A DNA stretch of 64,000 nucleotides from IMG/VR virus record IMGVR_UViG_3300035664_000005, positions 36,946-100,945 of that record; one strand, written 5' to 3'. The translations under genes were made by a program, and so were the position numbers. The notes below the pieces were generated by a model. It was not told the DNA's origin and did no database searches. It was given only the letters and a program-made list of their open reading frames with translations. Positions 21,317 to 44,604 of the stretch are shown here, in pieces; the stretch's first letter is position 1, and each line of letters starts with the position of its first letter. The stretch comes from a virus.

Positions 21317-21439
21317 GTTGTTCACTCCTAGTGAATTGGATTTTGTTGGTGGTTACTTATTTTTTTATTATTAAGACTTCGGTAAGCACCTAGTCCAGTT
21401 ACATTTGCTGTATTACGAGAATAACATCAAAGTAACATT
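21317..21439 (-). promoter_or_regulatory. Upstream region of the capsid gene
   Basis: About 120 AT-rich bases between the terminator of the 838-residue protein gene and the capsid start. A promoter must lie here because the terminator isolates the capsid gene. Minus-strand TTACTT...TAATAC (14-base gap) is one candidate, but none is convincing. Confidence 0.35.
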
Positions 21440-21465
21440 AAAAATGCAACCCCTTTTATTGGGTT
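21440..21465 (-). terminator. Terminator at the stop codon of 21465-23981
   Basis: Minus strand AACCC / GGGTT stem with an AT-rich loop, then GCATTTTT. The stem reaches the stop codon of the gene it ends. Confidence 0.6.
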
Positions 21466-23981: not shown

Positions 23982-24235
23982 TTCTTCTTCTTCTTTTTCT
24001 TCTTTTCGCTCTCGGAAATGTATGGTGTAATCATCCCATAAGTTTTATGCATTTCATCAATCTTGTCTTGATTTCTCATAAGATAACTGACCATTGACTC
24101 AAGGTCACCGTCTTCACCATTGTCTTCGGCGAAACCGAACGCTGTAGCAATAATTTTTGAACGCGTATTAGCGTTTTTTACTTTTTTGTATAGTTCAACT
24201 TTTATCGCAGTTTTTTGTTTTTCTGTGAGTTTCAT
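23978..24235 (-). CDS. Small helical protein with C-terminal poly-lysine tail
   Basis: An 85-residue helical protein (MKLTEKQKTAIKVELYKKVK, then acidic AEDNGEDGDLESM) that ends in eight consecutive lysines. The tail-encoding AAGAAGAAAAAG stretch runs into an ATGA overlap with the next gene, so the same purines probably act as its ribosome binding site. Also overlaps the upstream 1443-residue gene by 4 bases. The Lys tail could bind DNA or capsid interior. Unknown family. Confidence 0.6.
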   Translation of the reverse strand: MKLTEKQKTAIKVELYKKVKNANTRSKIIATAFGFAEDNGEDGDLESMVSYLMRNQDKIDEMHKTYGMITPYISESEKKKKKKKK

Positions 24236-27200
24236 GTCAGCCTCTTGTACCTTATCGCTCTATCTCTAAGCAAATTTTTTCTTCTTATATTTCGGTAAGC
24301 AGATTTCTCCCCAATTTTGTTGTCAGCGAAATTCAGGGCGGCACCCGAATATAGGGGCATGTGTTCTATGAACCAATGTTTTATGTAATCTCTACGGGCT
24401 TGTTCTTGGATACCACCAGAATCCATCATAAAGATTGCATCTTGGAGGGAAAGAGGTACACCAGATTTTTGTAGATCAACGAACGCTTTGACTCGTTGGT
24501 ACTCTTCATCCGTTGTAATTAAACCACTGCCACCCAAAACTTCATAAGTCCGCATTGCTGCTTTGAAGTGGCTCATCCTGTAACTATCTAGAGGTTCCTC
24601 GTTCTTAAACCCGACACGAGCCCAAATGTATTGTCCATCTTCCGCTGGACTTACTTGTGCTTCTTTAACCCCTATTTTTTCTAAATACCTGAAAGCAACA
24701 CCGTTATAAACTGTTGCCAATCCTGCTCCTTTGTCGCTATTTTTTGAAATGAAAAAACTTTGTTGATAGACGCTTGGTGGGTTTCCATTCATTTGTAATC
24801 TGCGTGTAGATGCCGCGATTCGCTCTCTCACTACCCTGCCGTCTTCATCTACTTCGTCAAACTCAACGTCAATAATTGTTTCATCAGGATTGTAGCGAAA
24901 ACGCTGCACTCGTGTCCTATAAAACTTCCCGTTTGCACCTACGATCTGGTCAAAGGTGTAAGCCTCTCGCAAATATCCCTCTTTTTGTTCGTTAGAAAGA
25001 GTCCCCCATTTTTCTGGTGTCATACGAACAAAATCAGGAAGCATATTGTTTGAATCTTCAGGATCGCCACCGTAATCAGGGAACTGAGATTCCAAATAGG
25101 TTTCAACCTCTGATGCACGTTTAGCAACTGCTTTTTCTATACTTGTGTCAATATCTGATTTAAGTTTTTCCGATGTTAGTTCTGGCGCTTCAAGTTCTTT
25201 AGGATCAACAAAGTATCCTTCCTGAAGTCTCAGAAGAGCCTTGTCAAAATCTTCTCTCAGTGAATTTCTTTGACGCATCCCGTGTTGTGCTTCGGCAATG
25301 CTAATTCTCGCCCTACCTATTTCACTGACAGCGCGGTTTATCGCTGAGGGTGACGGATTGTCCTCGTTTGATAATTTTTCAAGTTTTTCAACAGCATCTA
25401 AAATTCTTGCTCGCGCTTCTTCAATTCTAGCCAAATCGTCCGAGTCATTCCCATATCTGTAGTCGGCACGAATTTGTTCAACAGCGGCAGTGACATCTCT
25501 GCCGTCAGCAACTTGGGCTACACGTTGACTCAAATTATCAACATACGCCATTTCAAGTCGTTGTTGGGTTTCAGCAACATCATATTTGTTTTCATCAATT
25601 ACTGCAAGGACACCCGAAAGGTCTTTCACATCACTAATTTTTAGTACTGCTTGTTCCAAAAGTTTTTCTTCAATTGGATCCAACATTTTCTCAACTGGTG
25701 TGGGTCTATAGCGAAGTTGTTCAGGTGTACCTACGATTCCTTTTGGTTCCCCAACTTTGAATGCTTCCAATGGCGCCAATTTTCCTTCTTGGAACTCTTT
25801 TAAAAGTCTTTCTTCTAGTTTTACTCTCACAAGTTTTGCTTTTGCATCAGCAATATTTTCCAACTGTGCGCTTATCGGACTTTGAGTGCCGATATTTTGT
25901 TTCATGATTTCAAGTTGTTCTTTGATGGTGTTTTGATATGTGTCACGAAGAGATTCCGCTTGTTCAATCCTCGTAGCGATTTGGGCAGCGCCACCAAAAT
26001 CCCCATTAAACAGACCTGCGGTATAAGATCTTTCCCAGTTTACGAATTCATCAAGCCGTGTTTGCAGTTTTGTTTTATAAAGTTCTTTCGCTTGCAAATA
26101 CAAAATCCCGTTAGAGGAATCTAAGAGTTCATTAACATCATTATTTAATTCAGGATCATCAATATCGGCAATGGGCTGATCTGCACCAATTACTGCACGC
26201 ACAGGGACATCGGGTCTTGCTCCTTCAATACCGAAAGGGTTTTGTTGTATGACCGCGTTGATGACACGGTTTTCTTCATACATTCTTTCTCTGCCCTGTA
26301 TCGCTAACACCAGTTTTTGAATTGCTCGTTGACGTTCTTCACCTTCTAACGCGTTGAGCAATTCTCGTTTCGCGTCGCGTATTTGATTATTGAAATCGGA
26401 TGCTTTTTCCGAATTAGATGCAATGATTTGATTGAGTGCTTCAATATCCCCGTATATGCCGTCCTGCAATTGGGCTGAATTGTATATTACAGGGTTTTGA
26501 TTTTTTGCAATTTGATATTGCGAATTGATGGTATTAACTTCGGAATAATTTAGATCTTCAATGATTTTAAATTCTTCAGCAAGTTTTGGATCATTAAAAC
26601 GGCGCGGTCCTGCTGGTTGTGGTTGTGGTTGTGGTTGCTTATCTAGGGGATCGTTAACCAAGTTGCGTTGAGGTACGGGTCTGCGGCGCCATTCAATATT
26701 TGCTTCAATTTCTAATTGACGCATTTCCATCTGTTTTATTTTTTCATCAGACCCTTGTTGTGCCGCCCACGCGATCAGATACCTGTCACGCACCATGTCT
26801 CGTGCGCGTCCTCCGTTTTCTGTTCCCAAGTCTCGTTGAAGATTTAACCACGAGTCTCCTGCGTCCCTCAACCTTTTTTCAAGGGTCACCTGTAATCTTT
26901 TTTCTCTTGCCAATAGATCTTTAAGTTCGTCTAAGTTCGCGGAATTAAAATTCTGCATATTGTCGTAATTGTTGATTATGTCAAAATTGACGTTATTGAG
27001 CGCATCATTAATTTTTGCTTGATCTCGGTCTTCTTTGAAAGTTGCCTCAGGAACAAGGTACCCTCTTCTCATTGCGGGTGGTAAAAGGTTCGGTCTTGGC
27101 GGTGGAGGCTGAGGTACATCTCGTCCTTGTTCCACAATGGAAAGCGGTGTCAATTCTTCGGGGTTCGGTTTTCTTCTCTTCGGTTTATTTTCTTCTGCAT

Positions 27201-28563
27201 CAAGTCTGCGAAGTTCCTGAAGATCTGGTTCTAGTAAATCAACTTCTGGTTTTGGGCGGCGAGGTTTTACTATTTTTGGTTTGTCTTTTGCGGGTTTATC
27301 CTTACCTTCTGCCCTCAATTTTCTAGCGGCTTGCTCTCTTAATAGGAATTGGGTTCTTTCCCTGCTGACTCCGCCCTTTTTTCTTAATTCAGTTTCTATT
27401 TCTTGATCAGTCATATTCCGAATTCCCTCAGGGATCGGTTGTAGATCAACTTCATTCATCCCTTCAAAATTCACGGGCGTTATTTCTCGTTGCTCTTCCC
27501 GACGCGTTGGTGCTTTTGGTTTCTGAGTCGCTTCAACGACAGCACGACGACGACGGCGAGCAGGGGCTTCACCAGTTCTTGGCGCGCCGGGTTGAACGAG
27601 TTCTCGTTCCATTCTTCGCGCTTCTGAATCGCGAAGGTTTCCTCGTCGGCGTTGGGGTGGTTTTTTACCCCTACGGTTCAATTCTGCGTTAACTTTATCT
27701 AGCCGTTGCTTTGCGGTTAACCTTTGCGCGCTTACGGGGAGCATGCCAATCATGCCATCATCGCGAGGTTTATCTACTGCGTCTCGCAGTCTTTCAACCG
27801 ATTCCTGTGCATCTTGGTACTGTTTCTCTAAATCCTCGTCACTCATGGTGCGAAGGTTCTCTACATATGGGTCTTTGTCATCTCGTCTTGGAAGTGCAGG
27901 GGTATCACGATTTGGAATCGGACGAGTAGGACGAACAGGTGTTTCGCCAGTACGCGGTGCACCCGGCTGTTCAATTTCGCGATCAATTCTTCGTTGCTCG
28001 GATTCCCGTAGGTTCGGTGCACGCCTTCTGCGTGGAGCACGAGGAGCAGGAGTTAATTCGTTTGGTGCTTCGGGTGTGTCAACCGATGGTGGTCGTGCGA
28101 CAACAGTTCTGCGACGTTGCCCAACGAGACCTCGCGCAACGTTTCGCAGACCCCCTGTTTCTCCTCCTTCTAATCTTTCTGCAATACCTCGCAATCCCTG
28201 TTCAAGACGACCAGAACCTCTGTCTTGTGGGTTTAAGCGATTGAGAATTCTGCGTTCACGACGAGCAATACGCTCTCCTCTACGGACATCATCAACATTT
28301 TCTAACCGCTGACCGATGTCCGAAATTTGGTTGGCAATTCTTCTTGCAACACCCCAACCGCAAGACCTACCGAAACGGTCTGTGATTTGTCCGCCATATC
28401 GTGTCCCAACAGGGCAACGCCATCCGCCCCTTCGGTTAGTTCCGGGGATAGACAAACTCGGATCCCACAAAGCGCGGACTGACTTAACTTCGTAAGCCAT
28501 TGTTGACGTGTTTCTTTCACTAAGAAACGACTTGGCTTTAAAATCAACAATGTTTTGGAGCAT
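24232..28563 (-). CDS. Giant head-region protein: shared CPVGT module, Arg/Pro linkers, coiled coils, GNAT-like C-terminal domain
   Basis: A 1443-residue protein. Residues 1-90 hold the module shared with 28851 and 32533 (FKAKSFLSERNTST, then WDPSLSIPGTNRRGG, then CPVGTRYGGQ...C at 50-68, then ARRIANQI). A repeat-rich basic region follows (~90-480: GLRGIAERLEGG, NVARGLVGQRR, NLRESEQRR / NLRDSEARR with PGAPRTGE, Pro/Arg stretches), then ~600 residues of helical coiled coil. The C-terminal ~250 residues look like a GNAT acyltransferase: GAGLATVYNGVAFRYLEKIG as acetyl-CoA pyrophosphate loop and helix, and DGQYIWARVGF as the last strand. Probably packaged in the head; the acyl acceptor is unknown. 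Confidence 0.65.
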   Translation of the reverse strand: MLQNIVDFKAKSFLSERNTSTMAYEVKSVRALWDPSLSIPGTNRRGGWRCPVGTRYGGQITDRFGRSCGWGVARRIANQISDIGQRLENVDDVRRGERIARRERRILNRLNPQDRGSGRLEQGLRGIAERLEGGETGGLRNVARGLVGQRRRTVVARPPSVDTPEAPNELTPAPRAPRRRRAPNLRESEQRRIDREIEQPGAPRTGETPVRPTRPIPNRDTPALPRRDDKDPYVENLRTMSDEDLEKQYQDAQESVERLRDAVDKPRDDGMIGMLPVSAQRLTAKQRLDKVNAELNRRGKKPPQRRRGNLRDSEARRMERELVQPGAPRTGEAPARRRRRAVVEATQKPKAPTRREEQREITPVNFEGMNEVDLQPIPEGIRNMTDQEIETELRKKGGVSRERTQFLLREQAARKLRAEGKDKPAKDKPKIVKPRRPKPEVDLLEPDLQELRRLDAEENKPKRRKPNPEELTPLSIVEQGRDVPQPPPPRPNLLPPAMRRGYLVPEATFKEDRDQAKINDALNNVNFDIINNYDNMQNFNSANLDELKDLLAREKRLQVTLEKRLRDAGDSWLNLQRDLGTENGGRARDMVRDRYLIAWAAQQGSDEKIKQMEMRQLEIEANIEWRRRPVPQRNLVNDPLDKQPQPQPQPAGPRRFNDPKLAEEFKIIEDLNYSEVNTINSQYQIAKNQNPVIYNSAQLQDGIYGDIEALNQIIASNSEKASDFNNQIRDAKRELLNALEGEERQRAIQKLVLAIQGRERMYEENRVINAVIQQNPFGIEGARPDVPVRAVIGADQPIADIDDPELNNDVNELLDSSNGILYLQAKELYKTKLQTRLDEFVNWERSYTAGLFNGDFGGAAQIATRIEQAESLRDTYQNTIKEQLEIMKQNIGTQSPISAQLENIADAKAKLVRVKLEERLLKEFQEGKLAPLEAFKVGEPKGIVGTPEQLRYRPTPVEKMLDPIEEKLLEQAVLKISDVKDLSGVLAVIDENKYDVAETQQRLEMAYVDNLSQRVAQVADGRDVTAAVEQIRADYRYGNDSDDLARIEEARARILDAVEKLEKLSNEDNPSPSAINRAVSEIGRARISIAEAQHGMRQRNSLREDFDKALLRLQEGYFVDPKELEAPELTSEKLKSDIDTSIEKAVAKRASEVETYLESQFPDYGGDPEDSNNMLPDFVRMTPEKWGTLSNEQKEGYLREAYTFDQIVGANGKFYRTRVQRFRYNPDETIIDVEFDEVDEDGRVVRERIAASTRRLQMNGNPPSVYQQSFFISKNSDKGAGLATVYNGVAFRYLEKIGVKEAQVSPAEDGQYIWARVGFKNEEPLDSYRMSHFKAAMRTYEVLGGSGLITTDEEYQRVKAFVDLQKSGVPLSLQDAIFMMDSGGIQEQARRDYIKHWFIEHMPLYSGAALNFADNKIGEKSAYRNIRRKNLLRDRAIRYKRLT
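28300..28467 (-). repeat. Copy 1 of shared WDPSLSIPGT-CPVGT-ARRIA module
   Basis: Codes for residues ~33-88 of the 1443-residue protein; nearly identical in protein and visibly similar in DNA to copies at 31518-31685 and 34783-34950. Two Cys 18 residues apart flank a Gly-rich turn, and a helix with paired Arg follows. Confidence 0.85.
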
Positions 28564-28832
28564 TACTCCCCGATTTTTGCTTTGGCGATCGCTAAATTGT
28601 CCTCAGAGTATGACATCACTTGATACTCAAAACGAGAAGCAGACTTAATCCACCAACTAACAGGGTCAGTTATTTTACCTCTTTTTAATGCGTCGCCGTA
28701 ATCGCTTTTAGGGTCATCAATGTATTTTTGGATTTGTTTACCAGTTTCACCAGCACCAAAAATCTCTACATCTTTTCCATCGCACGAAATACCAAAATCG
28801 TGATTTGTTACTATCGCTATTGATGCTTTCAT
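28563..28832 (-). CDS. Hypothetical 89-residue protein
   Basis: A small soluble protein between two giant head-operon genes; its TAA stop overlaps the ATG of the 1443-residue gene (TAATG). It contains VTNHDFGISCDGKDVEIFGAGETG and DPVSWWIKSASRFEYQV, suggesting a small alpha/beta fold. No family recognised. Similar small genes (32184, 36758) alternate with the giant genes and may be their chaperones or antidotes; this is only a positional idea. Confidence 0.55.
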   Translation of the reverse strand: MKASIAIVTNHDFGISCDGKDVEIFGAGETGKQIQKYIDDPKSDYGDALKRGKITDPVSWWIKSASRFEYQVMSYSEDNLAIAKAKIGE

Positions 28833-28850: not shown

Positions 28851-31800
28851 TTAACGAAGAATTTCATTCATCAGACCGTCAACGAATCTTGTGTCACCCA
28901 ATTGAGCCAAGTTATACTCTAAATTCTCGCGTCTTTCAGTTTTCATCGTGTCTTCCACCGCATCATAAACAGCGTCAACTTGATCCAATTGATCAAAAGA
29001 ATCTGCTATTGCTTTTCTTGCTGTGGCTATAGTTTCTTGAAGTTCTTTCTTAATCGCTTGCGTTTCTCGTATCTTGTCTTGACCTTGTAAGCCACTCAAA
29101 CGCTTCTTATACCCCTGCCAAGGTCTTGGATCCATACCGTGAACAAATCCAAAATAATTTACCAATTCCGCTGCTGTTTTTCTTTCAAATCTTGCCCGAC
29201 CGAAATCTAAAGGAACCGCACCGTTGCCCGCAAATAAATCTCCATTGCCAGCGTGCCTATCTCTCACATCCATTATCGCATTAAGTATCCCATTGAATAA
29301 TCGCGACTGAGGGTCGGTTATTTTGCTCGGATCATAACCTCCTGCGAGTTTACCGTCGGAGTTATTTAAAAAAATGTCCATCAAAAGGAAAGGACCTGTA
29401 TCATCTCCGCCTGCGATTCTTGGTGATCCGTTTGCAAACCCAAGATTTTTGGCAAGGATGTTCCCAATGACTTCTGCGTGCTGAGATCCAGAATTGCCGT
29501 CGTTGTAGGCGTCGTCATAGTCTTCGTCGCCAAATTTTAGAAAGTATCCTCTGCCCCATTTTTGTGGGTTTTCATCAAGCAACAAAAAGTATTGCGGACT
29601 TGTAATTCCAGAACCAACAGGCATTTTGACAAAGTCAATCCCATTTTCTTTCAGTGCCTTAACTAGGGCAATGTTTTCTTGAATTCGCTGTGGGGGCAGT
29701 GCACCTAAACCTGCTTGAACATCTGTGCCTATTCCTCTTCGGACATCAATGGTTAATTTTTCTAGTTTTGCACCAATTTGAGCGTCGTCAAGATTTGGGA
29801 AAACTTTCAGTACAGCATCTCGTATTTCTGGAGTGAGCCCTCGGCGATCAGCGAAGTTTGCTGTACGGGCTTCCAGTGCATCTAAGATAAAGTCGTCTGG
29901 AATATCTGCCAACGAACCTTTATACGCTTTTGCTTCATCTACAGTGTTGATTCCTTTGTTGCCTACTGGCACTGAAACAAATTTTCCGTCTTTGGGTTGA
30001 AGTTTTGGCATGGCGGTCTCGTGGTTGTCCGCAAGGTTGTTCATTTTTAATGCTGGTGTGTTTCCACTTTTTGGGTTTGACGGTGTTGGCGTCGGCGCTT
30101 TAGATGTGGTTGATTTCGCATTTACCGCTTGTCGGAGTTTTCTGTGTTGTTCGCTAACTTTTCGTAAATCATCCATCACACCGACATCAGGACGCTGCCC
30201 CATTTGTCGTATTAATTTTATCTGTCCTCTTTTGTCATCTTCAATGCCTTCTACAAGACTAATCAGGTCGCTCAATTCGGTTTTTGAAACTGCTTTTGGT
30301 TGAAGCAAAATTGCTTTAACCTGTTTGTCAAATTCTTCACCCCACACATAGTTTGGGTCGCTCTTTATTTGTTTGATTGCTTCAGTGACAGCATCGCGAG
30401 CGGCTTTTTCTTCTGTGACTTTGTTTCGTTTATTCCGTTTAACTGGTTTTGCTGGCGCTGGTTCGGGAACGTCGTCAGGTGTTGGTTTGCGTGTTGCGCT
30501 ACGACCTGCACCTTGTGCCGTTGCTTGTCTGCGACGACCACGATTGTTTCGCGGACGACGAGGTTTTGGTGTTGGTGGTTCAAAATCTTGTGGTGCGTTA
30601 CGTCCGTGAGCATTTTTCCAAGCGTCACGAAGATTAGATTTATTGATTGCGTACCATTCACGGCGTGTCAGCATTCCAGCGTTTCCGCCACCTTCACGAA
30701 TTTCACGAACGCGTTTTGCGTACTCGTCATATTTTCGTAATACGTAAGGTTTGAAGTCTTCTGATGCTAAGGCGTCTGATGCGTCTCGTGCTGTGAGTAC
30801 ATCAACATTTTCTGCTTGTGGTGCAACGCGTGGGCGTGCCTGTGGGCGTTTTCCTGCTGGTGCTGGTCGTTTCGTAGGGCGTGGTTTCGGTGCAGGATTG
30901 TTTCTACCGTTCAAAAATGCTTTACCCGCCGTCGTTACCTCTAGGGTGTATTTTGCTCTGTCGGGATCAAAAACCCCACCTGCTGGAGTGTCGTTCTTTT
31001 TTTTACGAAGGAAACCTTTTTTGACTAATCGTTTAATGATTGGTTCATCTTCCGTAGTGACGCCTACCCAATCGTCCCAAACAGCACCAGTCCCCCCGTC
31101 GGGATGTGCTTCAAGAACGCGTTGTAGAAAATCTCGGTCTTCCTTTTCTTCGCGCAGATTTTTTTTCGGTGCCTTTGGCGTGGGCGCTGTTTCAGGGATT
31201 ACATCACGACGCCTATTACGAGGAACTCGTGCTGGAGATTCTGCTTCAGGCATAGTCTCTGTGACTCGCCTTTTTGGAACCCGTCGTTGCCCAACAAGAC
31301 CGCGTGCGACATTTCGCCAACCGCCGTCAATGTCATTTGCTTCTGCAACTCCGCCACGACCTACTTGTGGTTTTGGTGCATCCCCGCCTTCAAGACGCTC
31401 AGCGATACCGCGTAAGCCTCCTTCAACACGACCAGTCTCAGGAACTCCGCCAAGCCTTCTCATCATTCGTGCATTACGACGATCAAGACGACGCTTCCGT
31501 TTGTCATCATCTCGTTGTTCTAGTCGTTCACCGATATCTGCAATTTGGTTTGCAATACGGCGTGCTATACCCCATCCACATGAGCGTCCGAACCTGTCGG
31601 TGATTTGTCCGCCGTATCTTGTTCCTACAGGGCAACGAAAGCCCCCACGACGATTAGTTCCGGGTATAGAAAGACTTGGATCCCAAATAGCGCGAACACC
31701 TTTGATTTCAAAATGTGCTGATGAACGAGTTTGATCCGATATGAAAGAAGACGCTTTGAAAGTAAGAACATTTTTGAACTCCTCATTAGAAAACTCAGAC

Positions 31801-32105
31801 AGTAAAACTTCAGAGATTGACAGAACAGGGAGTGTTTCTAATTCTTTTTTTACGAGAGAAATATTTGCAACTTTTTTCTGTGATGCCATCCCTGAAGGGC
31901 TTGGTCCTTCAATGATTTTTGATGCGTCCATTGTTTGAACTAGTTCAGGTTTAGTGATTGGTGTTTTGCCATATTCTTCGCGCAACATTTTGGCGAGGTC
32001 TTTTGCAGGCTCAGACATAGGTTCAAAAGTGGAACCCTGAGGTGTTGATGTGACAACCATGAAAGGGGTCTCGTCGCGATTTTTGATAACAAAAACTAAC
32101 TTCAT
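28851..32105 (-). CDS. Giant head-region protein with shared CPVGT module and C-terminal kinase domain
   Basis: A 1084-residue protein. An extra ~110-residue N-terminal domain precedes the module (FKASSFISDQT, WDPSLSIPGTNRRGG, CPVGTRYGG at ~158-166, ARRIANQI). Basic linkers follow, with GLRGIAERLEGG and NVARGLVGQRR as in the 1443-residue protein, a winged-helix-like stretch (~345-420) and long Arg/Pro-rich regions. The C-terminal ~350 residues form a HipA/PI3-4K-like kinase: YFLKFG (ATP-binding Lys), HAEVIGNILAKNLGF (Glu helix), DVRDRHAGN (catalytic loop near 945) and LDFGRARF (metal-binding DFG). All key residues are present, so activity is likely. Substrate unknown; possibly injected with DNA to phosphorylate host proteins. 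Confidence 0.7.
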   Translation of the reverse strand: MKLVFVIKNRDETPFMVVTSTPQGSTFEPMSEPAKDLAKMLREEYGKTPITKPELVQTMDASKIIEGPSPSGMASQKKVANISLVKKELETLPVLSISEVLLSEFSNEEFKNVLTFKASSFISDQTRSSAHFEIKGVRAIWDPSLSIPGTNRRGGFRCPVGTRYGGQITDRFGRSCGWGIARRIANQIADIGERLEQRDDDKRKRRLDRRNARMMRRLGGVPETGRVEGGLRGIAERLEGGDAPKPQVGRGGVAEANDIDGGWRNVARGLVGQRRVPKRRVTETMPEAESPARVPRNRRRDVIPETAPTPKAPKKNLREEKEDRDFLQRVLEAHPDGGTGAVWDDWVGVTTEDEPIIKRLVKKGFLRKKKNDTPAGGVFDPDRAKYTLEVTTAGKAFLNGRNNPAPKPRPTKRPAPAGKRPQARPRVAPQAENVDVLTARDASDALASEDFKPYVLRKYDEYAKRVREIREGGGNAGMLTRREWYAINKSNLRDAWKNAHGRNAPQDFEPPTPKPRRPRNNRGRRRQATAQGAGRSATRKPTPDDVPEPAPAKPVKRNKRNKVTEEKAARDAVTEAIKQIKSDPNYVWGEEFDKQVKAILLQPKAVSKTELSDLISLVEGIEDDKRGQIKLIRQMGQRPDVGVMDDLRKVSEQHRKLRQAVNAKSTTSKAPTPTPSNPKSGNTPALKMNNLADNHETAMPKLQPKDGKFVSVPVGNKGINTVDEAKAYKGSLADIPDDFILDALEARTANFADRRGLTPEIRDAVLKVFPNLDDAQIGAKLEKLTIDVRRGIGTDVQAGLGALPPQRIQENIALVKALKENGIDFVKMPVGSGITSPQYFLLLDENPQKWGRGYFLKFGDEDYDDAYNDGNSGSQHAEVIGNILAKNLGFANGSPRIAGGDDTGPFLLMDIFLNNSDGKLAGGYDPSKITDPQSRLFNGILNAIMDVRDRHAGNGDLFAGNGAVPLDFGRARFERKTAAELVNYFGFVHGMDPRPWQGYKKRLSGLQGQDKIRETQAIKKELQETIATARKAIADSFDQLDQVDAVYDAVEDTMKTERRENLEYNLAQLGDTRFVDGLMNEILR
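31518..31685 (-). repeat. Copy 2 of shared WDPSLSIPGT-CPVGT-ARRIA module
   Basis: Codes for residues ~141-196 of the 1084-residue protein. Differs from copy 1 mainly at Ile for Leu before WDPSL, Phe for Trp before the first Cys, and Ile for Val before ARRIA. Confidence 0.85.
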
Positions 32106-32183
32106 TGGGTGCTTTCCATGATCGGGAAGGGTTTAACAGACCTTCTATACCGTGTAGTGGTATCGCCTATCAAATATTAGCAC

Positions 32184-32510
32184 TTATTTTGCTGAGTATT
32201 TTTTGCTGTATTCATCTATTTCTGCCACTAATTCGTTGACGCGATTTTTAGGCACATCCTCATTGGTGACAAATTTATAATCCTTTGGATCGCTTTGTGA
32301 ACCTCTATGGTCTAAAAGGCTGACGACCATGCCCTTATCCTCAAACATTCCCGCATTATTAGGGTTGTCTGAGTGTGTTCGGATGCGGAGACCGTTGTGT
32401 TTGGATGCCCTAGAGACTTTGTACCAAATCCATTTATTTTCATCATAATGGACGACAAGTTGGTGCAACTCTGTCTGAATCCGTGACTCGTAAGTTATTG
32501 GAAAACCCAT
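32184..32510 (-). CDS. Hypothetical 108-residue protein
   Basis: Small acidic/basic mixed protein (HQLVVHYDENKWIWYKVSRA, then a C-terminal helix VNELVAEIDEYSKKYSAK) between two kinase-bearing giant genes. No recognised family. The ATG follows TAGAAT plus six bases, the leaderless spacing seen elsewhere, although a weak GAAGG also lies 12 bases upstream. Confidence 0.55.
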   Translation of the reverse strand: MGFPITYESRIQTELHQLVVHYDENKWIWYKVSRASKHNGLRIRTHSDNPNNAGMFEDKGMVVSLLDHRGSQSDPKDYKFVTNEDVPKNRVNELVAEIDEYSKKYSAK

Positions 32511-32516
32511 AGTTAT

Positions 32517-32522
32517 ATTCTA
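32517..32522 (-). promoter_or_regulatory. Possible internal promoter -10 box before 32184-32510
   Basis: Minus-strand TAGAAT, six bases, ATG. It lies in the 22-base gap after the 837-residue gene; being in AT-rich sequence it may be chance. Confidence 0.25.
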
Positions 32523-32532
32523 CCTTCAGACA

Positions 32533-35046
32533 TTAAAAGTTCCCCGTCATTTGATCTAGATTGGCTAAACCCCAAGCAATTCGTGCTTCAGCCACCCTTC
32601 TAAGTTGAACCAAATGATTTTTTTCCGAATCCGACAACTTAATACCGTTAGCCTCAATTCGTTCAACGCTCAACTGTTCGTCCAATCTTTCTCTAATTCT
32701 CTCAAAAGACCTACGCATTGTCTTTTTATAAATATTCCGATCACGATCATTCTGAAATTCGTAGCCCAAACTTTCTAATTCGTCAAACGGATTATTGGCA
32801 GGCTCGTCCATATAAGCCCTCAAACTTGGATCAGCAACAACGAGGTCTGCGGAGTCTCTCACCCACTCATCAAATTCTTGTTCGTCATAGTTGGGGTTTG
32901 GAACTCTCCCACCGAACAACATGCCATTGTCAATAATTGCCAAACGGACACGTCCGCCTTGTTCTGTCATCAAGAAATTACCACCGTGTCTATCTGTGTT
33001 GCCAAACACAAAGTCCATCGCCAATATTCTTGCCGAGTCGCGCGGGTTGATTTTTTTGGCTTGGGCTTCAGTCATCATGCCTGCATCACGCCATTGACCC
33101 TGAACACCATTTTCCCATTGTGCAACATCCCGCATCATCATCCATCGTTTTGGTGGTTGACCAGAAACAGAACCTACCCTTAAATGGTTTTCATTATTAC
33201 CGAACTCTAAATCTTGAGCGACTCGCATTCCAACGTTTTCTAGTAAAGCGTCGTTCCTTCCGTATGTTGAAGTTTTCAAATACCAAACTTCTCCATTAAT
33301 TTTGTCCGTAACTCTAAACACTTGCCACGGACCTGGAGCAGCCCAATTTTTGTCTGCTATTAGTTTAAATTTGTACCTTCTATTTTCAAACTGAGATCCC
33401 TCACCTTCATCAAAACCTTGATCTAGTTTTTCGGCAATTTTTGCATCGGTGAACAGCAATGGACGACCATTCGCATTTAACTGCTTGAACTGACCATCAA
33501 AAACCGCTTCAATAACTACGCCATCTGGAACATCTGCAAGATTTCCGTTATCTTCGTGAAGAAGTTTTACGGCTCTTTGTAGGTCAGCCTCTTTCCCGTA
33601 TCGGCGAGGTGTTCTGCCACCTTTACCAGCGTCAGCATCAGGGACAACCCTTGAAGCGGGCAAGGAGTCTAAGGGTTCAGGAGTTGGAGGTGTTGGTGGT
33701 GTCTGAGGTGTCGGAGGTGTCGGTGAACTTGTGTTTTCGTTATTTCCGTCGCTTAGATCCAAAAACTGTTGACTAAAATCGCGTAAGTAACGATTCAGTG
33801 ACGCTTGACCCTGTGGACCTCGGTACTCTTGTTCTAGCGCGTCACCATCAACGATATTTCTGGCTAGGAAACCACGAAATTTTCCGCTTTCTTGTGGGAG
33901 TAGTTCAATTTCCCAGTTTCCCTTTTTCCATTTCGTTGAACCATCAGGTTGGTTAATAGCATCCCAACCTTCTCCACCGAAATCTGGCATTTTCATATTT
34001 GCCTGTGCTGTTGGTGCTTTAGGTGGTTGACCGGGTTTGTTGTCTGGGTTTTTTATTTTTCTGTTGACATAATCTCCTCTGTTATTGAGGTATCCGTCAT
34101 TGTCGTAATAGCGTCCAAATCTTCTTTCAAGTTCTGCTTTTTCTTCACCTTCAGGGAAATCTGCTTCTCGCCAATAAGCGTTATCGGGAAGACCTCGTTC
34201 ACGGAAACGATTACGCACATTTCTGATAGAACGCTCATCGGGAAGACTGCTACCGATGTCCACAGCAGATGATGGGTCGGCAACAAAATCTGGGTCTGCT
34301 TCAACAACCGTTGGGCGAGGCGCAGATGGTAATTTTCTTGTTGGCACTTTTGTGGGTTTTGGTTTATCGCCGTCTACAAAATCTGCTTCTGGTTTTCTGC
34401 GTGCAGTTCGTTTTGCCCCTTGTTGGGCAGCCGTTCGCCGACGTCGTCTTTGCTTGTTCGGTTTTGGTGGTTCTCCCGTGCGTGGGGCACCCGGTTCTAC
34501 AAGTTCTCTTTCCATCCTGCGTGCTTCTGAGTCACGAAGGTTTCCTCTCCTACGAGGCGTTTTCTTTCTCTTGGGTGCGTTTGGTTTTGGTGGAATTGTT
34601 GTAGGAGATTTTGGACGAGCCGATGGTTTTATTTGTCGTGGCTTCTGTTCGCCGTCAAGTGCTTCAGCGATGTTTCTCGCTCCACGTTCAAGTAAGCCGG
34701 GTTTTTGTTGTCTTGCCAAGAAGCGTTGCATGCGAGCATTTCGTTTAGCAAGACGATTATTGCGTTTGCGATCGTCAATGTTTTCTAACCGTTCGCCAAT
34801 GTCTGCGATTTCGTTGGCGATTCGTCGCGCTACTCCCCAACCGCAAGAACGACCGAACCTGTCAGTTATCTGACCTCCGTAACGAGTCCCCACAGGACAA
34901 CGCCAACCGCCACGCCGATTAGTTCCCGGTATAGACAAACTTGGATCCCACAAAGCACGAACACCTTTTACTTCGTAATTAAAAGTGCTTGCTGTTTGTT
35001 CTGAGATGAAAGTCAAAGCCTTGAAGTTGACTTCGTTTTTTTGCAT
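32533..35046 (-). CDS. Large head-region protein with shared CPVGT module and C-terminal PI3/4K-like kinase domain
   Basis: An 837-residue protein. N-terminal module at 1-90 (FKALTFISEQT, WDPSLSIPGTNRRGG, Cys50/Cys68, ARRIANEI), then basic linkers including NLRDSEARRMERELV and PGAPRTGE, a middle domain around residue 360 (MPDFGGEGWDAINQ ... YLRDFSQQFLDL), a Pro/Thr hinge, then NLADVPDGVVIEAVF and the kinase. Kinase landmarks: VWYLKTS (Lys), LLENVGMRVAQDL (Glu/Asn helix), WMMMRDV (hinge), FGNTDRHGGN at 681-690 and IIDNGMLF (DNG near 706-708). Complete enough to be active. The start is separated by only a stop codon from 35047-36765. Confidence 0.72.
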   Translation of the reverse strand: MQKNEVNFKALTFISEQTASTFNYEVKGVRALWDPSLSIPGTNRRGGWRCPVGTRYGGQITDRFGRSCGWGVARRIANEIADIGERLENIDDRKRNNRLAKRNARMQRFLARQQKPGLLERGARNIAEALDGEQKPRQIKPSARPKSPTTIPPKPNAPKRKKTPRRRGNLRDSEARRMERELVEPGAPRTGEPPKPNKQRRRRRTAAQQGAKRTARRKPEADFVDGDKPKPTKVPTRKLPSAPRPTVVEADPDFVADPSSAVDIGSSLPDERSIRNVRNRFRERGLPDNAYWREADFPEGEEKAELERRFGRYYDNDGYLNNRGDYVNRKIKNPDNKPGQPPKAPTAQANMKMPDFGGEGWDAINQPDGSTKWKKGNWEIELLPQESGKFRGFLARNIVDGDALEQEYRGPQGQASLNRYLRDFSQQFLDLSDGNNENTSSPTPPTPQTPPTPPTPEPLDSLPASRVVPDADAGKGGRTPRRYGKEADLQRAVKLLHEDNGNLADVPDGVVIEAVFDGQFKQLNANGRPLLFTDAKIAEKLDQGFDEGEGSQFENRRYKFKLIADKNWAAPGPWQVFRVTDKINGEVWYLKTSTYGRNDALLENVGMRVAQDLEFGNNENHLRVGSVSGQPPKRWMMMRDVAQWENGVQGQWRDAGMMTEAQAKKINPRDSARILAMDFVFGNTDRHGGNFLMTEQGGRVRLAIIDNGMLFGGRVPNPNYDEQEFDEWVRDSADLVVADPSLRAYMDEPANNPFDELESLGYEFQNDRDRNIYKKTMRRSFERIRERLDEQLSVERIEANGIKLSDSEKNHLVQLRRVAEARIAWGLANLDQMTGNF
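34783..34950 (-). repeat. Copy 3 of shared WDPSLSIPGT-CPVGT-ARRIA module
   Basis: Codes for residues ~33-88 of the 837-residue protein, nearly identical to copy 1. Confidence 0.85.
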
Positions 35047-36765
35047 CTACTTTTTCTTTCGTTGCTTTGCCAGATCGGGCTTGATGAATGTCTCATATAG
35101 CCATCGTGGAGCGGTTCGTTTTACACCGTCGGCGCCTGTGTATTCCACGAGTGCCAATGCATCAGGAATGTTTCCCGTATCAGCAATAAATTTGAATGCA
35201 CCTTCAGAATTTTTTGCGAAGTCTTCAATATTTTTGATGATGTTGTCTTTGGTGCTTGATTCTGCAAGCGAGTTAATCATCCGTGGGAATTTGCGTTTTT
35301 CACCAATTGTGAAGGGTCGCGAGCGTTCAATGCTGACCGTTACACCGTTTGGAGCGACGAAAGCGATCTTGCTCATTGACGGACCACCAAGAAGCGCTAA
35401 ATCGTCTGCGCCTATGTCGGCAGGTAATTGAATGGCGCGAACCATCGCACCGTCAACCATGTCAGGGTTTTCACTGAATGAACGAAGAACAGATGAAGGA
35501 ACAACTGGTCGTAGAATTACGCCGTCTCGTCGGATCATTCGTCCTTCGCCTGCTGGCGCACCTTTAAGCGTTGATATTGACTGCCGAACCGAAGCGTTGA
35601 ACTTATCTTTTTGGAAAGCGCCAGTTCGTGGGATTTGTGCCATGCGACTGATTTGAATTGTTCGCGCATTACTTGGGTTTCCCTCTAATACTTCTGAAAG
35701 ATTTTCGGCTCTTGCTTGCGGAAGTTTCGGTGCCGCTGTCGGGCGCATTGCTCGTCTGATTAGTTCTAACGGACCTGGTATTTCAAATAGTTGTGCACCG
35801 CAAGTAGAGAAACGGTTGTCTGTGAATCGTCCACCAAATTCAAAACCAGCAGGGCATCGTGCTTGACGCTTACGATTTGGCTTCAACCGACTGAGAGCAC
35901 CTTGTCCCCCGCCCGGTATTAGCGCACCGTAAACGCGTGAACGAATCGGAGAAGTCAGAGGGGAGATGTTTCCGGGTGTTAACGCTGAACCAATGCCTTG
36001 CAATGCTCTTCCTGCACCTGAACTAGAACCAACCAATCCTGCTTTTTCTTCTAAACCTTCTGAGTCATCTTTACCTACTCGGTATCCACCGCCACGCTTT
36101 TTGTATTCACGAACAAGCCAAGCATTCGCATATGCAGATGGATAAACATTAAATTTCTTTTTGGCTTCCGCTTTAACTCGTGCATAAAGTTCGGGGTCTG
36201 TAGGGATATTTTCACTTTTTACTGTGAATTCATCAGACTTAATTGTGGACACATTGATTGGTTTCTTGTCTTCACGGGTTTGAGAGTTTTCGGCTCGTCG
36301 TTTCCTGTTTACGGCGGAAGCAATTTGCTCGGGGGTCATACTCATCGCTCTAGACTTTTTCACACATTTTGGATACTTACCTGAATTTGCGTCCTCACGA
36401 CCGCAAGACTCAAAGCCTCCACCCTTTTTAGGGCGAGAGATGTCAACCCATTCTTCTTCAAACCATTTTCCTAAGCCACCGCGTTTTGTTTCATCGCCGA
36501 TAAAAGTCTCCGAACCCAACCGTGATGTCCGTGATTTTACATAAAGAGTTGCTTTAAAGTTGAGCAAAGACCTGTCACCGTTTAACGGTGTTTTTCTAAG
36601 CGCTGAACCTTTGGTGAAAATAGTTTTTCTTTTTGAATTTGATGGGTCAAAATAGGTTTCGTTGCCTAAGACAATGTTGGTTCGTTTTAGTAAGGTTTTT
36701 TCGCGAACAGATATACGAAGTTTCCGAGCAAAGTATTCAAAGTTTTGGTTGAGATAGTTACTCAT
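35047..36765 (-). CDS. DUF5872-like head-region protein with divergent CPAG module
   Basis: A 572-residue protein. Residues ~96-160 have GLGKWFEEEWVDISRPKKGG ... CGR ... YPKC, and ~190-230 have PELYARVKAEAKKKF then YPSAYANAWLVREYKKRGGG; both are typical of the viral/bacterial segments I remember as DUF5872 and its N-terminal partner. A divergent form of the shared module is internal here: CPAGFEFGGRFTDNRFSTCG at 304-323. The opening NFKATLYVKSRTS also resembles the pre-module stretch of the giant proteins. The C-terminal ~200 residues (RMIRRDGVILRPVVPSSVLRS, IAFVAPNGVTVSIERSRPFTIG) look like a beta-rich structural domain. Probably a virion protein; function unknown. Confidence 0.65.
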   Translation of the reverse strand: MSNYLNQNFEYFARKLRISVREKTLLKRTNIVLGNETYFDPSNSKRKTIFTKGSALRKTPLNGDRSLLNFKATLYVKSRTSRLGSETFIGDETKRGGLGKWFEEEWVDISRPKKGGGFESCGREDANSGKYPKCVKKSRAMSMTPEQIASAVNRKRRAENSQTREDKKPINVSTIKSDEFTVKSENIPTDPELYARVKAEAKKKFNVYPSAYANAWLVREYKKRGGGYRVGKDDSEGLEEKAGLVGSSSGAGRALQGIGSALTPGNISPLTSPIRSRVYGALIPGGGQGALSRLKPNRKRQARCPAGFEFGGRFTDNRFSTCGAQLFEIPGPLELIRRAMRPTAAPKLPQARAENLSEVLEGNPSNARTIQISRMAQIPRTGAFQKDKFNASVRQSISTLKGAPAGEGRMIRRDGVILRPVVPSSVLRSFSENPDMVDGAMVRAIQLPADIGADDLALLGGPSMSKIAFVAPNGVTVSIERSRPFTIGEKRKFPRMINSLAESSTKDNIIKNIEDFAKNSEGAFKFIADTGNIPDALALVEYTGADGVKRTAPRWLYETFIKPDLAKQRKKK

Positions 36766-37075
36766 TTTGTGAAGATTCTTTCGGATTTACGATTTCTGCT
36801 ATTTCTGACGGCAGTTGAGTTTTCCATTTTTTAGCCAGCAAATCTAAAAGGTACTTATTTTCATCATTTAAAAGATTCGTGCTTATATCATAATACGACA
36901 TTTTTGAGGTGGCTTTTTCAATAGTCATTTTTCCTGTTGAAACAAGCCCTACATATATGGTTTCGGCAAGTTTCTTGTCAGGGCACATCACCGCAAAGAT
37001 TTTGGAGTCCTTTTCAAAAAGAACATACGGGGAGCCACTAATACCCACGCTTGGGGCGATTACCGCATATCTCAT
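36758..37075 (-). CDS. Hypothetical 105-residue protein
   Basis: ATG 37075 sits behind GAGGGGGAATAGT just after the stop of 37077-37838, so the longer frame from 37132 is rejected. The product starts MRYAVIAPSVGISGSPYVLF, an alternating hydrophobic beta pattern, then a helical C-terminus. Its end overlaps the DUF5872-like gene by 8 bases. One of several small genes interleaved with large ones in the head operon. No family. Confidence 0.55.
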   Translation of the reverse strand: MRYAVIAPSVGISGSPYVLFEKDSKIFAVMCPDKKLAETIYVGLVSTGKMTIEKATSKMSYYDISTNLLNDENKYLLDLLAKKWKTQLPSEIAEIVNPKESSQNE

Positions 37076-37076
37076 A

Positions 37077-37838
37077 CTATTCCCCCTCCAAAAGCCTGTG
37101 GAGAACAGTGTCATTGGGGGGCGCAGACTCAATCATCATGTCAACCAATTTTTTAACTTCAATTCTTTGAATTTCCATCAGCCTTTTGGTGGCGTTGCTT
37201 ACTTCTTTCTTGATTGCATACAGTTCTTTTACTTGTTTATTGGAAATTGATTTCATGTCAAAAAGTTTTGGGTCATCCACAATGCCGTCTAGTTCTTTGA
37301 TTAAGTTGGCTCCCAAAGAACTAGGGTCAATTTTTTTTAACTCTTTAAGGGTTTCTTCCGCGATCTCTATGAGTTTGGTGAAATTACTTTGACTACGACC
37401 ATGTCTTTTTTGTAGTTCCGTGTTGACAAAAGAATTGCGGTACGCCTTGACGACCTGTTCTAACGAAGTGTCTTCCATGTTGAAAGGCTGAAGAATTGAG
37501 TCGTGATCAACAGGGATGACATCAACACCTTCAGCGTTTTCGCTTAACAAAAAATTGCTTACATCCCTTTCCCCGTTCAACATCACCACATCCATTAAAT
37601 GCATGTAAAGCAATTTGTCGCTTTGCACGGCTTCCAAGTTGTCTGGCGTTGTCTGTTTTATTTTGCCATCATAAGAATCAATTGATGAATCAGCCATAAT
37701 TGAGATTAGACCTTTTTGAGGGTCAAGTTTCATAACTCGCAAAGCAGACGACGGGTATCCAAACTCTTCCAAAATTACATGACCTAAAACTTCAGATAAA
37801 GGTTCATACCATTTTGATTTAATTACTTTGTCGTTCAT
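37077..37838 (-). CDS. Short kinase-like protein (C-lobe of HipA/PI4K-type fold)
   Basis: A 253-residue protein aligning by eye with the kinase domains of the 1084- and 837-residue proteins: LSEVLGHVILEEFGY matches the helix after the ATP-binding Lys, LISIMADSSID the hinge, LMDVVMLNGERDVSNFLL (88-97) the catalytic loop and VIPVDHDSIL (D111-D113) the metal loop. The catalytic loop reads E-R-D-V-S-N rather than D-R-H-x-G-N, and the N-terminal strands are nearly absent (only VIKSKW). It may be an inactive pseudokinase, or complete itself with the N-lobe-like stretch in the upstream 775-residue protein, to which it is coupled by a 4-base ATGA overlap. Confidence 0.5.
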   Translation of the reverse strand: MNDKVIKSKWYEPLSEVLGHVILEEFGYPSSALRVMKLDPQKGLISIMADSSIDSYDGKIKQTTPDNLEAVQSDKLLYMHLMDVVMLNGERDVSNFLLSENAEGVDVIPVDHDSILQPFNMEDTSLEQVVKAYRNSFVNTELQKRHGRSQSNFTKLIEIAEETLKELKKIDPSSLGANLIKELDGIVDDPKLFDMKSISNKQVKELYAIKKEVSNATKRLMEIQRIEVKKLVDMMIESAPPNDTVLHRLLEGE

Positions 37839-40162
37839 GGCTTCAACTTTACTTCTATTGGATAGATACCTTGCTCTTTGATGTCATCCAACTTGGTTTG
37901 GATGTTTTTGACAAGATCTTTCATATGATCAGAAAACTCTTCGCGCGACATAGGCGATGCATCTCCCGGTTTATATGGGAATGGGTCTACGCCAACTGTT
38001 TTACCTTTAATACCCAAACTTTCTTGAAACACTTTCGCCATAGCGAGAGCCTCGGTGATCGTTCCTTGATACTCCACGACATTTAGCGTTAGTTGCTCGT
38101 CCGCTGGTAAATGGTCATTCGCTAATTGAATAGCAGCCCATCTGTGGTGACCATCAACTACATATCCATCACTTGAAGTCAAAATCGGGCTCTTCCACCA
38201 TGCGGCTTTGGATTCCTTCAACCATTTTTCCCGCGCGGCAGTCCACTCGGGTGTTCCCTTCTCTCCCCACTCTTTTCTGGCAGTCTCGTAAGCCGAAAGT
38301 ATTCCTTCTGACTGCCCATCAATTTGCGCGTTCTTCAATTGATTTTGCGATGCGAACAGAGTTTTTGGATCCTTTGCTTTGGTCTGTAAAGCATTCTCTG
38401 GATCGGGATGTGTATCTTCCAAGAATTGAAATAATTCTGGTTCTGTTTTAACTTCCGTGGAACTCCAATTAGTTCTTTCAAAAACCCATTGTTTATCTTC
38501 TTCGGAGACATCTCCAAATGTTTTAGGTTTGTTCAACTTGTTTGAAAGATCTTTATATTTGTCTATATCTTCTTGACTAGTGAGTTTCTTTGGTTTAAGT
38601 TCCCCTTCAATAAGACCCGACTGAAACGCACGCATAGCGGGAGTGTCCGCCCCTTTTGTCGCCCCACCGCTTTGAGGCATGTTTTGACGCTGAACACCAA
38701 TGTTTTCGTTGCAAAACAAATTCTTTGCAGAGTAAAGACGGCATAGGTCAATATCGTGTGTTTCTTCAAAGTTTTTGAGCCAAGCCGCTTTTTCTTCTGG
38801 TGTGATGCTTCCAAGTTTTTCCAACTCTTCGGCTCGTTGCGCTCCTATATCTTTTATTTCTTTTTCCATTTGCTTGGCACTGTTTTGCACCAATTTTTGT
38901 TGACCGTCATCAGGGATTTCAACTTCGTAACCTAAAGCCAACAAAGCAACAGCCTCTTCAACATCGTCTGTTTGATAGATCGGATTGTCGGAAAGTACAC
39001 TCTTTTTGCCTGACCGCGTAACTCCGTATTTATCCAACAATTCCGCATCGCTCAAATCGTGAAGTTTGCCAGAACCCATCCCGTCATCAAGCAAAGTTCG
39101 CAACTTTGATGCCGCCCCCTGAGCAACTAATTTTTGGGTATCTTCTCTGCCGAAACTTTCATTTGAATATTTAATAGTAAAAAGTTTGCCATTTTCCCTA
39201 TCCCTGAGACGACTTGTTCTTCCCTCATGAACAACTTCAAACCGACCAGTCTCAAGAACATTTCCGTCTTTATCTTTTTTGTCCATGTTGTCAAGAACTG
39301 CGTTCAAAATTAATTCGTCGGATATCTCGTTTAAAGGTTTACCGTTTTTAAGATGATCTGCCGCTTTTTCTGCGGTATCTATATCTTTGTTTACGGTTGG
39401 GAGATCGTGTGAAACATTTTTCCCATTTATATCCGCAGCGCCAACTGAAAATTCGTTGTCTTTTGATTTAGCGACTTTGCTTCTACCAAGATTGAACCCA
39501 CTCCTTGACTTGCGCTTGCCCATATTTTTTTCTTTATTCTTATTCATGGACGCAATAAAGGCTCTAGCGTCAACGGACGAGTTTGATTTAATTCTTTCCG
39601 CTATTGCTTCTAATTGTTCTTTTCTTTTATCCGAAATTTTTCCTCGCTTATGAAGCGAATCAACCGTAAAATCAAGCACATCAGCGCCACCAGAGTTAAA
39701 CAAAGAAACTGCCAACAAAACGCTATCTGTAATAGACCCCTGTCCGTCACCATACGAATAGTCAAACGCCTGCAAAGCAATTAATGATGCTGTTTTTGCG
39801 GATCCTTTAACATTTTTATCCGCCAAAATCCCTCTAGCACCATCCACTAATTTGTCCATCATTTTCGCTGCACCCCTAGCGACCTGAGATGCGTCAGGGA
39901 CAAGACAGTTAGACATTTGCATGTCGGTAAATTGGTTTGCGTTTGGAGTACCGGGTGGACACCTTAATTTTCCTGCTGCGTCAACAATGACACCAGCGGC
40001 ACGAGCGGCACGTGTACCAACAGAATTCAAAGAAGGATTATCTTTTATGGTCGGTCCGAGATAACCCTTAAATAGAAGAAGGTTGTCCTGAACGACGGAA
40101 ACAGATTTTCGGTATTCTGCGACTCTTTCGTTTGCGTCAAAAGCGCGAGACGATTTAATCAT
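37835..40162 (-). CDS. Large head-region protein with CPPGT module, kinase N-lobe-like stretch and C-terminal ParB-like domain
   Basis: A 775-residue protein. The shared module appears in divergent form (RCPPGTPNANQFTDMQMSNC, Cys68-Cys86). Residues ~265-345 resemble the region before and including the kinase N-lobe of its neighbours: AADHLKNGKPLNEISDELIL, then GKLFTIKYSNESFGRED and QKLVAQGAASKL; the rest of a kinase domain is missing. The C-terminal ~110 residues are ParB/sulfiredoxin-like with GYVVDGHHRWAAIQLAN (DGHHR 670-674), like the 838-residue protein. Many such domains are nucleases or nucleotide-dependent enzymes in phage and toxin contexts. Couples to 37077-37838. Confidence 0.6.
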   Translation of the reverse strand: MIKSSRAFDANERVAEYRKSVSVVQDNLLLFKGYLGPTIKDNPSLNSVGTRAARAAGVIVDAAGKLRCPPGTPNANQFTDMQMSNCLVPDASQVARGAAKMMDKLVDGARGILADKNVKGSAKTASLIALQAFDYSYGDGQGSITDSVLLAVSLFNSGGADVLDFTVDSLHKRGKISDKRKEQLEAIAERIKSNSSVDARAFIASMNKNKEKNMGKRKSRSGFNLGRSKVAKSKDNEFSVGAADINGKNVSHDLPTVNKDIDTAEKAADHLKNGKPLNEISDELILNAVLDNMDKKDKDGNVLETGRFEVVHEGRTSRLRDRENGKLFTIKYSNESFGREDTQKLVAQGAASKLRTLLDDGMGSGKLHDLSDAELLDKYGVTRSGKKSVLSDNPIYQTDDVEEAVALLALGYEVEIPDDGQQKLVQNSAKQMEKEIKDIGAQRAEELEKLGSITPEEKAAWLKNFEETHDIDLCRLYSAKNLFCNENIGVQRQNMPQSGGATKGADTPAMRAFQSGLIEGELKPKKLTSQEDIDKYKDLSNKLNKPKTFGDVSEEDKQWVFERTNWSSTEVKTEPELFQFLEDTHPDPENALQTKAKDPKTLFASQNQLKNAQIDGQSEGILSAYETARKEWGEKGTPEWTAAREKWLKESKAAWWKSPILTSSDGYVVDGHHRWAAIQLANDHLPADEQLTLNVVEYQGTITEALAMAKVFQESLGIKGKTVGVDPFPYKPGDASPMSREEFSDHMKDLVKNIQTKLDDIKEQGIYPIEVKLKP

Positions 40163-44552: not shown

Positions 44553-44604
44553 GATGCTCCAAAAATGTTTGTTTATTAACAATAAACTATTTAGGGCACC
44601 AAAA

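Follow-up and report, generated by a model that had tools for sequence, protein, structure and literature searches.

A multi-slot array of PI3/PI4K-HipA-like kinase proteins with a constant N-terminal module and exchangeable C-terminal ends in a phage head operon

The final 64 kb of the 100,945-base IMG/VR virus record IMGVR_UViG_3300035664_000005 (hereafter the window) carries a phage head operon in which the interval between the prohead protease gene and the major capsid protein gene encodes a series of large proteins, two of them ending in kinase domains of the PI3/PI4K-HipA clan. Comparison with related viral loci suggested that this interval is probably an array of polymorphic effector proteins, which are probably packaged in the head. 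As judged from sequence, a near-invariant N-terminal module is common to the paralogues of each phage, the C-terminal enzyme, in most cases a kinase with a complete active site and under purifying selection, is swapped as a cassette through recombination, and each cassette is accompanied by its own downstream open reading frame (ORF) of ~100 residues; this is the anatomy of a polymorphic-toxin locus placed inside a phage head operon. The gene positions of the array are called slots 0, A, B and C below, the loci compared bear L-numbered labels (L003, L018 etc.), and the head operon with all features of the window described here lies on the minus strand.

An initial annotation of this DNA had described two ORFs, of 1084 and 837 residues, with complete kinase motifs, and both were recovered with the coordinates and residues that it had given. 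The 837-residue protein of slot A (32533..35046) consists of a constant basic N-terminus and a C-terminal type I PI3/4K-HipA-like kinase domain (residues 470-837, 32536..33639), with K591, E603, DRHGGN at residues 685-690 (about 32977-32994) and D706. The 1084-residue protein of slot B (28851..32105) consists of an N-terminal extension, the constant module and a C-terminal type IV kinase domain (residues 700-1084, 28854..30008), with K857, E878, DRHAGN at residues 949-954 (about 29244-29261) and D967, the numbering being taken in both cases from alignments A2 and A3. The slot A protein matched the Pfam family PI3_PI4_kinase (PF00454) with an E value of 2.9e-8, above the curated cut-off. The slot B protein had no single-sequence Pfam kinase match, and its kinase was placed by family alignment, by PDB profile matches (PI3K, PI4K, FAM20) and by a confident predicted fold. 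Among the 29 domains of alignment A2, 12 matched PI3_PI4_kinase and five matched HipA_2, the slot A domain not being one of these five, and the best PDB matches of the kinase profiles were PI4K, PI3K and FAM20.

The ATP-binding Lys, the alpha-C Glu, the DRH and Asn of the catalytic loop and the metal-binding second Asp were invariant across the 29 domains, at identities down to 14% (alignments A2 and A3). The members of these alignments were chosen by their DRHxxN motif, so that conservation of this motif is partly circular; the Lys, the Glu and the second Asp played no part in the choice, and their conservation is not circular. AlphaFold models of the slot A kinase (predicted local distance difference test, pLDDT, 79; predicted template modelling score, pTM, 0.81) and of the slot B kinase (pLDDT 87.9, pTM 0.88) were both bilobal with a C-terminal helical part. 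In Foldseek searches the slot A model matched CtkA at the top, and also Tel1 and PI3K-delta, and the slot B model matched PI3K, VPS34, CtkA and HipA. The Foldseek probabilities were about 1.00, yet the query TM-scores were only about 0.25-0.39, and these matches therefore support the fold class, not a close similarity. The ratio of nonsynonymous to synonymous substitution rates (dN/dS) was about 0.10-0.19 in five related kinase pairs, and was not computable where dS was saturated, which included comparisons of the window's own kinases. The C-terminal ends of the slot A and slot B proteins almost certainly have a kinase fold of the PI3/PI4K-HipA clan, and both kinases are very likely catalytically competent. 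Sequence, profile matches, the predicted fold and residue conservation bear out the proposal that the head operon of a phage encodes HipA/PI3-4K-like kinases, a kinase fold being predicted for both proteins and the Lys, Asp and Asn residues being invariant in relatives. The comparison with CotH-type kinases that had also been suggested found no counterpart, since none of the Pfam scans of these proteins gave a match to the CotH family.

Neither the N-terminal module nor the small downstream ORFs had been part of the initial annotation. The module, of ~70 residues (WDPSLSIPGTNRRGGWRCPVGTRYGGQITDRFGRSCGWGVARRIAN), is common to the 837-, 1084- and 1443-residue proteins of slots A, B and C. In slot A it lies at 34771..34977 and reads KxVRAxWDPxLSIPGTNRRGGWRCPVGTRYGGQITDRFGRSCGWGVARRIAN; the slot B copy (31506..31712) is 79% identical to it, and 47 columns were invariant among 11 diverse copies. 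The module was present in about 41 viral loci, frequently in several copies per locus. It had no confirmed match in the prokaryotic genome contigs of the genome_contigs collection, and neither the module, the 837-residue protein nor three kinase domains from related loci matched anything among 50,697 phage records. Every complete kinase, that is, every one not cut by a contig end, bore the module or its slot 0 variant, the exception being the detached 253-residue pieces described below. The N-terminal 300 residues are strongly basic (isoelectric point, pI, 10.3-11.1) and the enzyme end is acidic; in slot A the pI was 11.1 for the N-terminal 300 residues versus 5.1 for the C-terminal 350. A basic front joined to an acidic enzyme end would suit packing with DNA. 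The kinases had been described as fused to head-type modules, which holds for the position of the genes, between protease and major capsid protein where head and packaging genes are located, but not for the N-terminal module, in which no known head domain was found.

Kinase type and N-terminal front vary independently of each other within a single slot. In slot A, L018 and L009 have N-termini that are 100% identical and kinase cores that are only 28% identical. In slot B, L024 and L025 share 97% of the N-terminus versus 30% of the kinase, and the reverse is seen between L009 and L025, with 86% identity in the N-terminus and 98% in the kinase. Nucleotide comparison by blastn located the same exchanges: L024 and L025 aligned at 94% identity for 14.1 kb, the match ending midway through slot B and resuming at slot C, and L009 and L018, which are 91-95% identical in the flanks, lost similarity in the C-terminal portions of the slot A, slot B and slot C genes.

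An ORF of 89-117 residues was located directly downstream of all 59 kinases or C-terminal pieces for which the downstream sequence was readable, often abutting or overlapping the kinase stop codon. In the window, the slot A (type I) partner has 108 residues (32184..32510), and its family also follows type I kinases in L018, L019, L005, L052, L048 and L038; the slot B (type IV) partner has 89 residues (28563..28832), and its family also follows type IV kinases in L018, L019, L034, L004, L026, L042 and L037. Each of ten kinase clusters mapped to a single partner cluster, and the Mantel correlation of partner similarity was higher with the kinase (r 0.43) than with the N-terminal module (r 0.16). 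With the slot held fixed, slot A partners were 59% identical if they followed kinases of one type and 23% identical if the types differed (p 0.0035); the corresponding values for slot B were 58% and 24% (p 0.0002). N-terminal identity was equal within and between types. Profile comparison did not support a single family of partners, except for joining type II with type 0 and type IV with type IVb.

A third kinase, which is broken and was absent from the initial annotation, was found in slot 0 (37077-40162). The 775-residue slot 0 protein (37835..40162) has a constant N-terminus with a variant motif, CPPGTPNANQFTD, a kinase N-lobe up to residue 336 and, after the Lys strand, a stretch of ~440 residues with a ParB-like match. 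The C-lobe is detached as a 253-residue ORF (37077..37838) in which the catalytic motif is degraded to GERDVSN, and is followed by a type 0 partner ORF of 105 residues (36758..37075), whose family also accompanies the intact slot 0 kinases of L010, L004, L018, L025, L026 and L027. In L010 and L004 the slot 0 kinase is one intact protein of 613 residues; residues 1-336 of the 775-residue protein aligned to residues 1-347 of the L010 kinase with 56% identity, and residues 9-250 of the 253-residue ORF aligned to residues 368-609 with 37% identity. The slot 0 kinase of the window is very probably dead. L006 has a split slot 0 kinase arranged as in the window, which makes mis-assembly an unlikely origin of the split, although L006 is perhaps a very close relative.

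Across phages, the front of slot 0 is constant and its end is a kinase, a metallopeptidase-like domain bearing HELSH, a DUF3626 domain or a ParB-like insertion. In L007, a remnant of a DUF3626-type end (KPAPVGTPTVDAVWSP, about 5780-5945) lies downstream of a metallopeptidase-like slot 0 gene and resembles the displaced cassettes of polymorphic toxin loci. Slot 0 of L003 (7384-8124) consists of the constant N-terminal part alone (246 residues), without an enzyme end. The slot 0 protein of L042 has extra sequence behind the kinase, and its partner, by eye, is like the ORF after the L007 metallopeptidase and unlike the kinase partners.

From these features we infer a scheme of head packaging, injection, phosphorylation of host proteins and inhibition by the partner. 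The basic N-terminal half would direct the protein into the prohead, and the kinase would enter the host together with the injected DNA. There it would phosphorylate host proteins, most likely on Ser/Thr residues of the translation apparatus or of another part of the core machinery, in the manner of HipA, HipT and the T7 kinase. The small ORF would encode a cognate inhibitor that silences the kinase as long as it is in the cell that made it; upon injection this inhibitor would be lost or diluted. The parts of this scheme differ in strength: that the kinases are host-directed effectors is quite probable, packaging of the proteins in the virion is also rather probable, and for the partner the role of inhibitor is favoured by a slight measure. 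Several points weigh against the scheme. No packaging function is known for the N-terminal module, and in Pfam and PDB searches the partners resembled no known family and matched no known immunity protein, HipB, HipS or HipA N-subdomain; their identification as HipS-like proteins was considered and found no support. A role of the partner as chaperone or adaptor fits the co-inheritance equally well, and part of this co-inheritance is due to physical linkage and common descent, besides functional pairing. Furthermore, no integrase was found in four records, which may be fragments, and immunity of a lysogen is therefore unsupported as the partner's purpose; without such a role, the partner would have to act late in infection, shielding the cell that produces the phage.

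A chaperone-like partner is also what would be expected if the kinases were assembly enzymes that act in the producing cell or the prohead on capsid, scaffold or protease-linked proteins, the small ORFs serving as chaperones or adaptors. The location between protease and major capsid protein and the constant, structural-looking N-terminus are consistent with this, as is the presence of one partner per enzyme. However, portal and major capsid proteins are often 93-98% identical among the closer phages whose kinases are ~70% different, and the exchange of slot 0 ends for metallopeptidase, DUF3626 and ParB-like ends is a variability unexpected for assembly, so that this explanation appears unlikely. 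The same strong diversification between nearly identical phages could instead reflect superinfection exclusion or inter-phage defence, in which kinases made late would stay in the cell and harm rival phages, with the small ORF protecting the producer. A precedent is the HipA-family kinase encoded between the portal and major capsid protein genes of 'Gratiaviridae' (PMC8008677), but exclusion leaves the constant basic module, or its slot 0 variant, on every complete kinase unexplained, and we consider it improbable.

Two further explanations concern the kinase fold itself. If the folds were retained merely as non-catalytic structural scaffolds, the persistence of a slot 0 kinase degraded to ERDxSN, in the window and likewise in L006, would be understandable; the invariance of the active-site residues (K, E, DRH, N, second D) in 29 domains and the strong purifying selection argue against this, which makes it very unlikely. 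It is still harder to believe that the enzymes are lipid (phosphoinositide) kinases, as the Pfam name would have it. PI3K and PI4K were indeed the best Pfam and PDB profile matches, but the clan includes the protein kinases HipA, CtkA, FAM20 and the PIKKs, which were also matched. We return to the reading of the array as head-delivered effectors, of which a narrower form is possible, although short of probable: a new, MuF-independent class of head-delivered polymorphic effectors built on one module, with interchangeable PI3K/HipA-like kinases (in slot 0, other enzymes) and private inhibitors. If so, phages would carry several toxin-immunity pairs as virion cargo, renewed by cassette exchange, and polymorphic-toxin logic would operate in phage heads without MuF, with a kinase payload and several copies per genome. 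The array also provides a candidate for a module that directs proteins into the head, a number of small ORFs as candidate inhibitors of kinases, and a way to identify host proteins that phages may phosphorylate at injection.

The closest parallels are the MuF polymorphic toxins of temperate phages, which also have small downstream ORFs (Jamet et al. 2017, PMC5576092; Zhang et al. 2012, PMC3482391). Both share the location in the head module, a constant N-terminal domain, a variable C-terminal enzyme, a small ORF immediately downstream and a predicted delivery by the virion. In contrast to the MuF toxins, the N-terminal module described here is not MuF (PF04233 was found on the portal protein only), there are several slots per genome rather than one, no integrase was found, and the payloads are mainly PI3/4K-HipA-like kinases; the word 'kinase' is absent from the main text of PMC5576092. 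The HipA-family kinase of 'Gratiaviridae' (Microbiome 2021, PMC8008677), for which superinfection exclusion or inter-phage defence was proposed by analogy with the 933W kinase, occupies an equivalent genomic position. Its neighbours are an AAA ATPase and a glycosyltransferase, and the phages that carry it have been assigned to Bacteroidetes hosts; it differs from the present array with its constant module, swapped cassettes and cognate partners.

Packaging and injection are likewise predicted for the polyvalent proteins of phages and conjugative elements (Iyer et al. 2017, PMC5512222), which are large, have multiple domains, kinase, ParB-like and metallopeptidase domains among them, and are often encoded next to genes of the virion. 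PMC5512222 does not mention HipA and assigns the kinases of these proteins to a branch of the Ser/Thr/Tyr kinase superfamily in which the C-terminal subdomain was lost; the kinases found here appear to differ, their models having a C-terminal helical part and matches of the PI3K/HipA type. HipBA and HipBST share the kinase clan and motifs, and in HipBST the small inhibitor HipS of the HipT kinase is encoded alongside it (PMC10627512), as a small protein of an adjacent gene; the present proteins differ in having no helix-turn-helix HipB, no detectable similarity to HipS or the HipA N-subdomain, and a large phage-specific N-terminus. Helicobacter pylori CtkA and the eukaryotic PI3K, PI4K, PIKK and FAM20 kinases share the fold class and the DRHxxN and second-Asp motifs, at identities of about 10-15% and in an unrelated domain context. 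Kinases fused to head-type modules had been called unusual, a statement weakened by the 'Gratiaviridae' kinases (PMC8008677) and by known MuF- or portal-linked enzymatic effectors (PMC5512222, PMC5576092). What is unusual is the multi-slot array with its swapped kinase cassettes and cognate downstream ORFs, which the initial annotation did not contain. No description of such a combination, in which a new module and several slots go together with kinase cassettes and with partners specific to the kinase type, was found in a literature survey that left subscription papers and preprints largely uncovered.

Judged by capsid and portal proteins, the closest cultured phages are mostly Actinomycetota phages, and terminase matches were more mixed. 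No significant kinase was detected by the A2/A3 profiles in five actinobacteriophage head regions. The Gordonia phages L054, L056 and L058 offer a culturable parallel: their portal-capsid interval has genes for VIP2-like ADP-ribosyltransferases and HExxH-bearing proteins, with a KVRDxxYWGAPxGTPI-like motif common to their N-termini. Because effector-like genes occupy the same interval in these phages, this part of the genome seems to be a dock for effector genes in general. The window's phage perhaps infects an actinobacterium, a weak inference drawn from the closest cultured phages and the Gordonia interval parallels.

The head operon includes a portal protein (44644..46854; PF04860, 3.2e-48) that has a C-terminal Phage_Mu_F domain (PF04233, 9.8e-7), an S78 prohead protease (42414..44582; PF04586, phrog_80) and a 492-residue protein, and continues through the large-protein interval to an HK97-type major capsid protein (20006..21325; PF05065, phrog_10). 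Large proteins of 775, 253, 572, 837, 1084, 1443 and 838 residues, with small ORFs interspersed, make up this interval between the 492-residue protein and the major capsid protein. The order of portal, protease, 492-residue protein, slot 0, 572-residue protein, slots, 838-residue protein and major capsid protein is kept in relatives, as is the position of slot B between slots A and C. The conserved 572-residue protein (35047..36765) has a divergent CPAGFEFGGRFTDN module and a DUF5872 match; no variable end was seen in it.

The first ~105 residues of the slot B protein (31791-32105) form an extra, conserved N-terminal domain with the sequence MNLVFIIKNRDNTPFMVV; the suggestion that this extension is a fused partner was not supported (hhalign E 0.05-0.5). 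The 1443-residue slot C protein (24232..28563) combines the constant module with a conserved C-terminal domain (24232-24834) with WARVGF and HQDxIFA motifs (WARVGF...HQDxIFAxDD), for which no convincing match was found in Pfam, PDB or PHROGs; a resemblance to GNAT suspected by eye was likewise unsupported by these three. An 85-residue ORF (23978..24235) overlaps the slot C stop codon and is conserved after slot C in L004, L009, L010 and L025. Two copies of DUF3721 are present in the 838-residue protein preceding the capsid gene (21465-23981), which also matched phrog_3170 and has a weak ParB-like match close to its C-terminus, and a 140-residue 2-oxoglutarate-Fe(II) oxygenase (PF13640, 9.8e-10) is encoded inside the head operon at 40172-40594.
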